This document shows positions 28,464 through 32,543 of a DNA stretch of 64,000 nt, piece by piece. The position numbers were made by a program, and so were the translations under genes. The notes below the pieces were generated by a model. That model searched no databases, was not told the DNA's origin, and saw only the letters and a list, made by a program, of their open reading frames with translations. Source of the DNA: Amycolatopsis sacchari (GTDB lineage Bacteria > Actinomycetota > Actinomycetes > Mycobacteriales > Pseudonocardiaceae); contig NZ_FORP01000006.1 in assembly GCF_900114035.1 (NCBI RefSeq), positions 1-64,000 of the forward strand, given 5' to 3'. The number at the start of each line of letters is the position of its first letter. Position 1 is the stretch's first letter.

Positions 28464-28772
28464 TCAGGCGACCGAGATGGCCACCTGGTGCAGGCCGGGA
28501 CCCTCCGCCGTCACGGAGGCCTCACCGTTGCCCGCGCGGTGCAGCGCACGCACCTTCCAGTCGCCGGGCGCGGCGTAGAACCGGAAGTCGCCCTCCGGGG
28601 AGGCCTGGACCTCGCCCGCGAAGTCGCCGTCACCGTTGAGCAGGCGCACGTACGCGCCGCCCAGCGGGCCGTCGTTGCCGATCACCTTGCCGGCCACCAC
28701 GACCTGGCCCTGGGTGTCGATGTCCGCGGGCGTCGCCGTCTGGACCGGCGCGCCGCAACCGTCAGCACTCAT
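28464..28772 (-). CDS. DUF1416 protein, SseC-like
   Basis: 102 residues. A transthyretin-like beta-sandwich fold is suggested by GQVVVAGKVIGNDGPLGGAY and FAGEVQASPEGDFRFY. The N-terminus has a conserved Cys (MSADGCGAP). In mycobacteria the homologue SseC2 follows the rhodanese CysA2, exactly as here. A role in sulfur transfer is assumed from this constant neighbour. The ATG at 28772 has GGGAAG upstream; 2 bp separate it from the rhodanese gene. Confidence 0.88.
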   Translation of the reverse strand: MSADGCGAPVQTATPADIDTQGQVVVAGKVIGNDGPLGGAYVRLLNGDGDFAGEVQASPEGDFRFYAAPGDWKVRALHRAGNGEASVTAEGPGLHQVAISVA

Positions 28773-28774
28773 CG

Positions 28775-29614
28775 TCACTTCCCCGTTCCGGTCTCGATCG
28801 GCACGCCGACGAGCGAGCCGTACTCCGTCCACGAACCGTCGTAGTTCTTCACGTCCGGCAGGCCCAGCAGCTCGTGCAGCGCGAACCAGGTGTGGCTGGA
28901 GCGCTCGCCGATGCGGCAGTAGGCGATGGTCGCCTTGGACGTGTCCAGCCCCGCCTCGCTGTACAGCTCCTTCAGCTCCTCGGCGGACTTGAAGGTGCCG
29001 TCCTCGTTGGCGGTCTTGGCCCACGGCACGTTCAGCGCCGACGGGATGTGGCCGCCGCGCTGCGCCGACTCCTGCGGCAGGTGCGCCGGGGCCAGCAGCT
29101 TGCCGGAGAACTCGTCGGGCGAGCGCACGTCGACCAGGTTCTTCGTGCCGATCGCGTCGACGACCTCGTCGCGGAAGGCGCGGATCGAGGTGTCCGGCTC
29201 CTTCGCGGTGTACGTGGTGCGCTCGCGCTTGACCTCGTCGGTGGTCAGCTCGCGGCCGTCGAGCTCCCACTTCTTGCGGCCGCCGTCGAGCAGCTTGACC
29301 TTGTCGTGGCCGTAGAGCTTGAAGTACCAGTACGCGTACGCGGCGAACCAGTTGTTGTTGCCGCCGTACAGGACCACCAGGTCGTCGTTCGAGATGCCCT
29401 TCTCGGACAGCAGCGCCTCGAAACCGGCGCGGTCCACGAAGTCGCGGCGCACCGGGTCCTGCAGCTCGGTCTTCCAGTCGATCTTGACGGCACCGCGGAT
29501 GTGGCCACCGTCGTAGGCGGTCGTGTCCTCGTCCACCTCGGCGAAGACCACGCCGGGGGTGTCCAGGTTCTCCTCGGCCCACTGCGTCGTGACCAGGACG
29601 TCTTCACGGCTCAT
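28775..29614 (-). CDS. Thiosulfate sulfurtransferase (tandem rhodanese, CysA2/SseA-like)
   Basis: 279 residues, two rhodanese domains. The active-site loop of the second domain is YCRIGERSSHTWF, with the catalytic Cys, as in mycobacterial CysA2 (Rv0815c). It moves sulfane sulfur from thiosulfate to an acceptor such as cyanide or a thiol. The operon order DUF4395, rhodanese, DUF1416 and the upstream Cys leader peptide point to control by cysteine supply. Confidence 0.93.
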   Translation of the reverse strand: MSREDVLVTTQWAEENLDTPGVVFAEVDEDTTAYDGGHIRGAVKIDWKTELQDPVRRDFVDRAGFEALLSEKGISNDDLVVLYGGNNNWFAAYAYWYFKLYGHDKVKLLDGGRKKWELDGRELTTDEVKRERTTYTAKEPDTSIRAFRDEVVDAIGTKNLVDVRSPDEFSGKLLAPAHLPQESAQRGGHIPSALNVPWAKTANEDGTFKSAEELKELYSEAGLDTSKATIAYCRIGERSSHTWFALHELLGLPDVKNYDGSWTEYGSLVGVPIETGTGK

Positions 29615-29652: not shown

Positions 29653-30090
29653 TTAGGACGCTTGACGGGCCGACGGGGCGACCCGCCGGAACAGCAGGTA
29701 CACCTCGCAGCCGAGGCAGAAGTTGAACGCCGCGTTCAGGAACGCCGCGAGCAGGGCGAACGCCGTCGCGACGATGCCCAGCACGGTCACCCCCGACGCG
29801 TAACCGATCGTGCCGACCAGCGCGAACACGAACCCGACGGTCTGCGCGAACCGCAGCGGCGCCGCGTCCTCGCGCTCGCTCGTCGGAGCCAGCCGCGGCG
29901 CGACGAGGTAGCGGTAGAGGACCGAGTACGGCGCGGGTTTGAGGCCGACGAACGCACCGATCGCGAACACGACCGTCTGCGCCGCGAGCAGCGGCCACCA
30001 GCCGGTGACCAGCACGACGGCGAGGACGACGGTGGTGACGGCGGCGGCGAACCGCGGACCGCGGGGATCGACTGCTGGGCCTGCTGACAT
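29653..30090 (-). CDS. DUF4395 membrane protein
   Basis: 145 residues with four predicted membrane segments and a CLGC motif near the C-terminus (FNFCLGCEVYLLFRR), typical of this family and suggestive of thiol chemistry at the membrane. First structural gene of the sulfur operon. The ATG at 30090 has a strong GGGAGG; an alternative CTCGTC-containing hairpin can reach this ribosome site (see 30091-30177). Confidence 0.88.
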   Translation of the reverse strand: MSAGPAVDPRGPRFAAAVTTVVLAVVLVTGWWPLLAAQTVVFAIGAFVGLKPAPYSVLYRYLVAPRLAPTSEREDAAPLRFAQTVGFVFALVGTIGYASGVTVLGIVATAFALLAAFLNAAFNFCLGCEVYLLFRRVAPSARQAS

Positions 30091-30177
30091 CGGACCTCCC
30101 GGACGAGCGCGCACGCGCGCGAGTGGAACGGACTGCGGAACCGGGGGTGGACGAGCCGCTTCAGGCGGGACTCGTCG
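30091..30177 (-). promoter_or_regulatory. Attenuator-like hairpins between the leader peptide and the DUF4395 gene
   Basis: Directly after the leader stop codon, GACGAG (30176-30171) and CCGC pair with GCGG and CTCGTC (30155-30150) to form a 10 bp hairpin with a 2 nt bulge. A second CTCGTC (30107-30102) lies just before the GGAGG of the DUF4395 gene, so the same GACGAG could pair there and mask the ribosome site. A stalled ribosome on the leader would cover GACGAG and change the choice. Confidence 0.55.
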
Positions 30178-30252
30178 TCAGAAGTGACACAGGCTGCTGC
30201 GCACGCGGCAGAGGTCCACCGCGCGACGTTGCGTCAGCAGGGTCGTCGTCAC
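30178..30252 (-). CDS. Cysteine-containing leader peptide of the sulfur operon
   Basis: A 24-residue frame from a GTG at 30252 to TGA, ending 87 nt before DUF4395. It reads MTTTLLTQRRAVDL then C15 and, after six residues (RVRSSL), C22, H and F. The RRxVDLCRVxSxLC pattern is that of the putative leader peptides seen ahead of sulfur-assimilation genes in Actinobacteria. TACTCT (30265-30260) lies 7 nt before the GTG, so the peptide is leaderless, like the cysteine-responsive leader peptides reported ahead of the equivalent mycobacterial operon. Slow translation of the two Cys codons when cysteine is scarce would favour operon expression. Confidence 0.8.
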   Translation of the reverse strand: MTTTLLTQRRAVDLCRVRSSLCHF

Positions 30253-30295
30253 GCCGTTCAGAGTACCCAGCGCGTCCTCCTGCTGGGAACCACGT

Positions 30296-30736
30296 TCACT
30301 GGGTGGGACGGCTTGACGCGGCGGGAAGGTGCTCTTCCAGGGCTTCCAGCACCGCGGGGCCCTTGGGCACCCCGCTGATGCGGAGCAGCTCCTTCCCAGC
30401 GGGTGAGAAGGCGAGCGTGGTCGGGGTGCGCAGCACGCCGAGCGCCTGCGCGACCTCCGGCTGGTCCGTCACGTCCAGCTCGACGTGACGCAGGCCGTCC
30501 GTGCGCTCCGCGAGCGGCTCCAGCACGGCCTTCGTGTGGCGGCACGGCGCGCAGAACGTGGTGGAGATCTGCACGAGGGTGACCGCGGCGTCCGGGTCGA
30601 GCGCGTCCGCGACCGGGCCGGGCAGCGCCCGCTCGGTCTCCTTCGCGGCCCCGATCCGGCCGTTGCGCGCCTTGAGCACCGCCCCGGCGACCCCGCCGAG
30701 CACCAGTACCCCCAGCACGACCCAGACGCCGACCAT
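30296..30736 (-). CDS. Membrane-anchored thioredoxin-fold protein (ThiX-like)
   Basis: 146 residues. One N-terminal membrane anchor (VWVVLGVLVLGGVAGAVL) and a thioredoxin domain with the active-site motif CAPC in ISTTFCAPCRHTKAV. The cis-Pro loop is LRTPTTLAF. It probably reduces disulfides at the cell surface or serves the neighbouring sulfur operon; in M. tuberculosis the homologue ThiX (Rv0816c) has the same position. 4 bp separate it from the lmeA stop. An inverted repeat of CCCAGC (30266-30287) lies between it and the leader promoter and may end its transcript. Confidence 0.88.
   Translation of the reverse strand: MVGVWVVLGVLVLGGVAGAVLKARNGRIGAAKETERALPGPVADALDPDAAVTLVQISTTFCAPCRHTKAVLEPLAERTDGLRHVELDVTDQPEVAQALGVLRTPTTLAFSPAGKELLRISGVPKGPAVLEALEEHLPAASSRPTQ

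Positions 30737-31668: not shown

Positions 31669-32543
<875 letters not shown>

Follow-up and report, generated by a model that had tools for sequence, protein, structure and literature searches.

A two-cysteine leader peptide with a nearly fixed UGU codon as a predicted cysteine gauge upstream of a DUF4395-rhodanese-DUF1416 operon in Amycolatopsis sacchari

The leader and its sulfur operon

We analysed a stretch of 64,000 nucleotides from Amycolatopsis sacchari (NCBI RefSeq assembly GCF_900114035.1, contig NZ_FORP01000006.1, positions 1 to 64,000), hereafter the window. On its minus strand, a thioredoxin-like gene is followed by a short leader open reading frame (ORF) and by the genes for a DUF4395 protein, a rhodanese and a DUF1416 protein:

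30260..30265, minus strand: -10 box TACTCT of a predicted leaderless start, 7 nt before GTG (sequence)
30178..30252, minus strand: leader ORF MTTTLLTQRRAVDLCRVRSSLCHF with its stop (translation; NF042934 and NF042933 scores)
30208..30210, minus strand: Cys15 codon UGC (of 172 leaders, 168 have Cys at this position, and 160 of these use UGC)
30187..30189, minus strand: Cys22 codon UGU, the proposed sensor codon (UGU in 171 of 172 leaders of the same operon)
30095..30100, minus strand: ribosome site GGGAGG of the DUF4395 gene (sequence)
29653..30090, minus strand: DUF4395 gene (PF14340, 156.4 bits; ATG at 30090)
28775..29614, minus strand: rhodanese (sulfurtransferase) gene with two rhodanese stretches (PF00581, 113.3 bits)
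28464..28772, minus strand: DUF1416 gene (PF07210, 128.2 bits)

The leader starts at GTG 30252-30250, encodes 24 residues and stops at TGA 30180-30178. An earlier note on this DNA had described a 24-residue peptide with Cys15 and Cys22 that begins 7 nt after TACTCT, and all of these elements are present in the sequence. Its reading as a putative leaderless Cys leader before a sulfur operon is supported by the -10 spacing and by the conserved place of the leader. Specifically, an in-frame ATG or GTG with TANNNT 6-8 nt upstream was found in 78/80 leaders of the bacterial family when any start was allowed (6.4% in the shuffled control) and in 69/80 when only the nearest in-frame start was considered. 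Outside the bacterial family, the same spacing occurred in 76/91 leaders for any start and in 33/91 for the nearest, with controls of 2.6% and 1.7%; identical shuffling was applied to every leader. The ORF, its location and its -10 box recur across the bacterial family beyond chance, and we predict that transcription starts at the GTG itself.

Upstream of the -10 box, members of the family share a two-part motif, numbered here from the start of the leader: TCCC (-36 to -33) and GGGA (-25 to -22), with, for example, C at -34 in 68/80 and G at -23 in 61/80. In the window (30274-30289, minus strand) TTCCC is present and the second half of the motif is incomplete. The motif could represent a variant -35 element or else an operator. 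Near the operon, on the plus strand at 31707-32543, there is also a regulator gene whose product has a GlnR N-terminal domain (PF21695, E 3.9e-41); its start is uncertain.

With regard to family membership, the leader matched NF042934 ("putative leader peptide") with 29.4 bits by hmmscan and 27.4 in a genome search, passing the curated cut-off of 27, and NF042933 ("Ms5788A family Cys-rich leader peptide") with 35.5 bits (E 5.6e-9). Because the latter score lies below the curated cut-off of 45, we file the leader under NF042934 only; it is a member of that family and is homologous to NF042933 while falling outside its membership. Searching Rfam 15 over 29900-30500 gave nothing at the gathering score (the sole hit, to Guanidine-III on the plus strand, scored 15.4 bits where 36 are required).

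The leader stands upstream of DUF4395 on the same strand in 83/87 DUF4395 loci of the bacterial family, the other four having no leader by the motif pattern. Of these 83 leaders, 80 were used in the start and folding analyses, and 57 remained once redundancy was removed. Their common form is LLT[QKR]RRAVDxCRVxSSLC. A nearly identical leader occurs in a named Amycolatopsis bartoniae record (L277). In six loci (L026, L030, L032, L098, L107 and L113) the leader frame stays open until only 4 nt remain between its stop and the start of DUF4395, and the leader may be translationally coupled there.

In other families of the class, 126 loci were tried, of which 15 had no motif match; the remaining 111 gave 92 unique leaders, and 91 of these had a recognised next gene, preceding DUF4395 or rhodanese. 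The corresponding non-redundant set (n=79) comprised 59 leaders without and 20 with a polycysteine tract. By profile, NF042933 was detected in 247/394 genomes of the class at E 1e-4 (48 above the cut-off) and NF042934 in 215/296 at E 0.01 (177 above the cut-off). Across the phylum NF042934 was found in 10/149 genomes, nine from the same class and the tenth under the cut-off.

A nearly fixed UGU at the proposed sensor cysteine

The Cys seven codons after Cys15, which is Cys22 in the window, is encoded by UGU almost without exception. Besides the leaders of this operon, this held for 11/12 paralogous leaders (from 14 loci tried, three of which yielded no leader and one of which yielded two), for 39/40 further leaders, most of them before other genes (about three are DUF4395-like by eye), and for 119/119 named records among the matches listed, where the pattern permitted UGC or UGU at both Cys positions. 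These sets overlap in part, the named records sharing genomes with the unnamed sets. By comparison, UGU makes up 12/174 Cys codons (7%) in the first downstream gene of the family set and 29/151 (19%) in that of the other set, and the remaining Cys codons of the 40 further leaders were UGC in 36 cases and UGU in one. The earlier note had given both Cys codons a part in positioning the ribosome; the two are not equivalent, as Cys22 is kept and nearly always UGU, while Cys15 is missing from many paralogous leaders. This rule was not found among the titles and abstract openings listed by searches of an open-access library, and what our analysis newly contributes is this near-fixation of UGU at the proposed sensor codon.

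The three exceptions were one leader of this operon (L169), L001 and L266. L001 lies in the same genome as the window (contig C27), has UGC at the sensor Cys before a sulfite reductase gene, and had no Rfam match at the gathering score; L266 also has UGC, and its next gene resembles that of L001. One locus (L065) has two leader motifs on opposite strands, both with UGU at the last conserved Cys. The gap from this Cys to the stop is exactly three codons in 97/119 named leaders among the matches listed, and two in the window. In the core (30190-30226, minus strand), CGC predominates at the Arg codons five before and one after Cys15, and GCC is rare at the Ala codon four before it.

The ten paralog downstream genes that we chose match two nitrite/sulfite reductases, a ThiS-type carrier, a PAPS reductase, an APS kinase, a luciferase-like monooxygenase, TauD, an NMT1/SsuA-like binding protein, a flavin reductase and a cysteine dioxygenase. 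Since UGU is kept in front of so many different genes, its third letter is unlikely to be fixed by base pairing to a single partner downstream. A single tRNA-Cys presumably reads both UGU and UGC. NNC codons are reported to be decoded faster than NNU codons, Cys tRNA included (PMC4046918), and we infer that slow decoding is a simpler cause of the UGU fixation than base pairing. The best reading of these patterns is that cysteine would be sensed mainly at one slow UGU codon.

The strongest competing explanation is a sequence-specific arrest peptide, in which the nascent chain RRAVDxCRVxxxLC slows the ribosome and Cys-tRNA at UGU merely tunes the effect, with an identical output downstream. All 116 non-redundant leaders that lack a polycysteine tract have Arg at the position of the first Arg, encoded by any of five codons; Asp, Val and Thr are likewise kept as residues but written with different codons; and many paralogs retain the motif without Cys at the first position. 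Because codons vary and amino acids do not, the conserved chain may contribute some arrest. However, some core codons are biased at the third base, and conservation may therefore lie partly in the RNA; as the main cause of the pause, we consider arrest rather unlikely.

Sensing at the UGU codon could reach beyond this operon. We tentatively propose a class-wide sulfur regulon read by one sensor Cys codon at the end of the conserved core, fixed as UGU, the slower of the two Cys codons. The conserved chain would amplify the pause, so that a single codon would do the job that other attenuators give to a run of codons, and the mycobacterial polycysteine tract would be a later amplification. One locus (L235) has a RRVHMDLVRYAGCVC-type leader before a cysteine dioxygenase gene, with similar leaders in L243, L263, L265, L269 and L270. 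As cysteine dioxygenase consumes cysteine, regulation at such loci would presumably have a different sign.

Pairing partners around the DUF4395 ribosome site

Four further elements lie around the leader stop and in the spacer before the DUF4395 gene:

30171..30188, minus strand: leader tail, stop and first post-stop bases, the proposed blocker of the ribosome site (excess complementarity; window duplex -21.1 kcal/mol)
30150..30176, minus strand: post-stop hairpin GACGAG..CTCGTC, 6+4 bp (genus stem score, covariation)
30141..30148, minus strand: spacer ACCCCCGG, which pairs with the ribosome site with a probability of ~0.79 in free window RNA
30102..30107, minus strand: second CTCGTC, present; pairing with GACGAG unsupported in relatives

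The hairpin joins GACGAG (30176-30171) to CTCGTC (30155-30150), with an inner CCGC/GCGG and a 2-nt bulge. The earlier note had placed GACGAG directly after the stop; it is there but begins one nt past it, and the 10 bp stem proposed with the near CTCGTC exists as 6+4 bp and covaries in the genus. The genus stem score was 16.8 against 9.25 +/- 1.24 in shuffles, a value that 0/300 shuffles reached (16 distinct of 18 loci). Often the genus stem takes in the last two bases of the stop codon, and UGA/CUCGUC, UAA/CUCGUU and UAG/CCCGCU covary. Genus stems were counted by script, the MAFFT alignment of the hairpin segments having misaligned some loops. In distant loci, comparing own with cross pairings of the hairpin gave a z of -2.82 (p 0.0034; 44 loci), weaker than in the genus; in the same test two neighbouring arms gave -1.86 and -2.05, and three controls 0.05, -0.09 and -0.04. 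Outside the genus the hairpin averaged -9.35 kcal/mol against -6.60 for shuffles (41 loci, mean z -0.75).

An alternative is transcriptional attenuation in the spacer, intrinsic or Rho-dependent. Genus spacers are C- and T-rich by eye, and Rho was suggested for mycobacterial cys leaders by Seliverstov 2005, in a prediction that the available text itself describes as weak (PMC1262725). Against this, the genus hairpins have no consistent U run (by eye), and translation attenuation has been described for the related leaders of M. smegmatis (PMC13236596, PMC9031893). We regard a transcriptional mechanism as improbable.

The switch proposed in the earlier note, in which GACGAG chooses between the near CTCGTC and a second one beside the ribosome site, seems to us more doubtful still. 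Both partners exist in the window, the second (30107-30102) one nt upstream of GGGAGG (30100-30095), and a complement of at least 5 bp occurs in 8/18 genus loci when redundant loci are counted. Among distinct loci, however, it occurs in 4/13, compared with 15% of cross pairs (z 1.56, p 0.083), and in the folded window the second GACGAG:CTCGTC pairing has a probability of 0.00 in all four states, the first hairpin standing at 1.00. Across the genus, the far pairing is not conserved.

To identify the strand that blocks the ribosome site, each ribosome-site region was compared with windows of the leader at the same locus and of leaders at the others; relatedness among loci inflates all z values of this test. 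For the 57 non-redundant loci of the bacterial family, the top window was centred 12 nt beyond the first base of the Cys22 codon (z -4.63; 0/5000 permutations; 23 windows), and with 20-nt windows the peak was -3.83, with a standard deviation of z elsewhere of 1.36. The best partner of the ribosome site lay at the leader tail in 15/57 loci, where ~12% would be expected if positions were uniform. A finer map of 504 cells had extremes of -4.04 and +3.95, so that noise equals signal at this resolution.

For the 59 leaders of other families without a polycysteine tract, the windows starting 3 and 6 nt past the sensor codon averaged -10.3 and -10.8 kcal/mol, compared with about -7.5 elsewhere and -7.7 to -8.0 in shuffles. 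The z values were -2.82 at 3 nt, -2.50 at 6 nt and -3.05 at 0 nt (standard deviation elsewhere 0.82). In the 20 polycysteine leaders the lowest z (-3.51) fell within the tract. Before other sulfur operons (40 loci, 37 with a usable gene start, 35 non-redundant), tail complementarity was weak, with z about -2 and no absolute excess. With moderate confidence, we take the tail and stop as the best-supported blocker for this operon, an architecture predicted from these comparisons.

Two other candidates were considered. The VDL codons were suggested both by the window, where they read GGACCTC, and by the sulfite-reductase leader. They are the strongest single partner of the ribosome site in window folding, and are a possible blocker in the window alone; as a family-wide blocker they were rejected, there being no covariation, and the Leu of relatives giving way to F, Y, N, H or Q. 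The spacer CCCCCGG was set aside as a conserved blocker; the folding that favours it is that of the window.

Folding predictions gave a less clear picture. Single-sequence folding, averaged over the family loci, had the ribosome site mostly closed in every state and showed no switch: openness was 0.19 in the absence of a ribosome and ranged from 0.18 to 0.26 when a ribosome footprint was placed at any codon. When the RNA was cut at the front of the ribosome, openness rose from 0.236 to 0.323 around Cys22; relative to a stall 45 nt earlier, a Cys22 stall in cut RNA raised it by more than 0.05 in 23/57 loci and lowered it in 9. In free window RNA the hairpin is already formed and the ribosome site is paired with CCCCCGG. 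Openness in the window was 0.19 when free, 0.39 with a ribosome at Cys22, 0.19 at Cys15 and 0.18 at the stop. Modelled folding shows no clean switch in the window. RNAalifold found negligible structure in the leader core (-1.9 kcal/mol, n 116; -5.4 in the 20 polycysteine leaders).

Proposed mechanism and relation to known leaders

Present in the DNA itself are the ORF, the -10 spacing, its place before the operon, the UGC/UGU choice, the hairpin and a tail complementary to the ribosome site. From these we predict that the leader, a member of NF042934 and a homologue of Ms5788A, probably attenuates translation of the DUF4395-rhodanese-DUF1416 operon in response to cysteine. It likely serves as a gauge by which the operon would be translated when cysteine runs short. 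Transcription would begin at the GTG. With ample cysteine, ribosomes would clear the leader, and its last codons and stop would pair with the DUF4395 ribosome site and shut it. When Cys-tRNA is short, a ribosome would slow at Cys22, whose UGU codon is probably decoded at a lower rate than UGC. The front edge of this stalled ribosome could cover the blocker, upon which the post-stop hairpin would form and the ribosome site would open, inducing the operon under cysteine shortage. Cys15, upstream of the blocker, likely plays a lesser role.

That the peptide acts in trans, and not as a leader, is hardly credible: strong amino-acid conservation would suit such a role, but copies precede sulfur genes of varied kinds, and the synonymous UGU choice would be hard to account for.

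The published polycysteine attenuators are one variant within a broader family of actinomycete leaders, in which two Cys codons, or only one, are kept. The DUF4395 and DUF1416 genes would be tied to cysteine supply. The nearly fixed UGU also makes a sharp prediction, one letter wide, on codon-specific sensing of amino-acid supply.

Canestrari and colleagues (2020) reportedly studied the Ms5788A leader of Mycobacterium smegmatis. Cys-rich leaderless ORFs before cysA2 and Msmeg_5788 were described by Shell 2015, where Cys attenuation was proposed (PMC4633059); Cys-dependent attenuation in M. smegmatis (PMC9031893) and translation attenuation in the same species (PMC13236596) have also been reported. 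In Streptomyces lividans, the available text of one study lists eight leader peptides, none of them named for cysteine (PMC8079986).

Mycobacterium-type relatives of our leader have the LTKRRAVDLCRV core followed by a polycysteine tract (e.g., LTKRRAVDLCRVAGCCCCCCSC), and leaders of other families have LTKRRAVDLCRVAGCLC or RVATCLC, before DUF4395 or rhodanese. The window leader holds the same sulfur-operon position as the mycobacterial polycysteine attenuators (before DUF4395, rhodanese and DUF1416), and a contiguous Cys codon tract is absent from it. The polycysteine tract and the SSLC of the window are hence versions of one element. The earlier note had set the leader apart from the polycysteine leaders of mycobacteria by its two separated Cys codons; it does have just these two, but by core and neighbourhood it is homologous to those leaders rather than separate. 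On these sequence comparisons, it is a two-Cys version of a leader kind that is already known.

Its closest described counterpart, Ms5788A of Mycobacterium smegmatis, shares the LTxRRAVDLCRV core, the leaderless spacing, the rhodanese/DUF4395 operon type and Cys codons near the end, but has a polycysteine tract where the window leader has two separated Cys codons. The strongest signal for a blocker comes downstream of the last Cys in window-type leaders and inside the tract in polycysteine leaders. The NF042934 profile ends at the Cys22 position; it is a family model without a mechanism, and the UGU rule lies outside a protein model. The actinobacterial Cys leaders of Seliverstov 2005 are likewise short Cys ORFs before sulfur operons, without a conserved terminator in the text available, yet they have runs of Cys codons and precede cys operons of Mycobacterium and Propionibacterium and cbs of Bifidobacterium (PMC1262725). 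The enteric leu attenuators likewise use a specific synonymous codon, CUA, at the regulatory site; they differ in relying, as far as the excerpted report describes, on several codons and a distinct tRNA isoacceptor (PMC1183508), whereas the window leader would rely on one codon.
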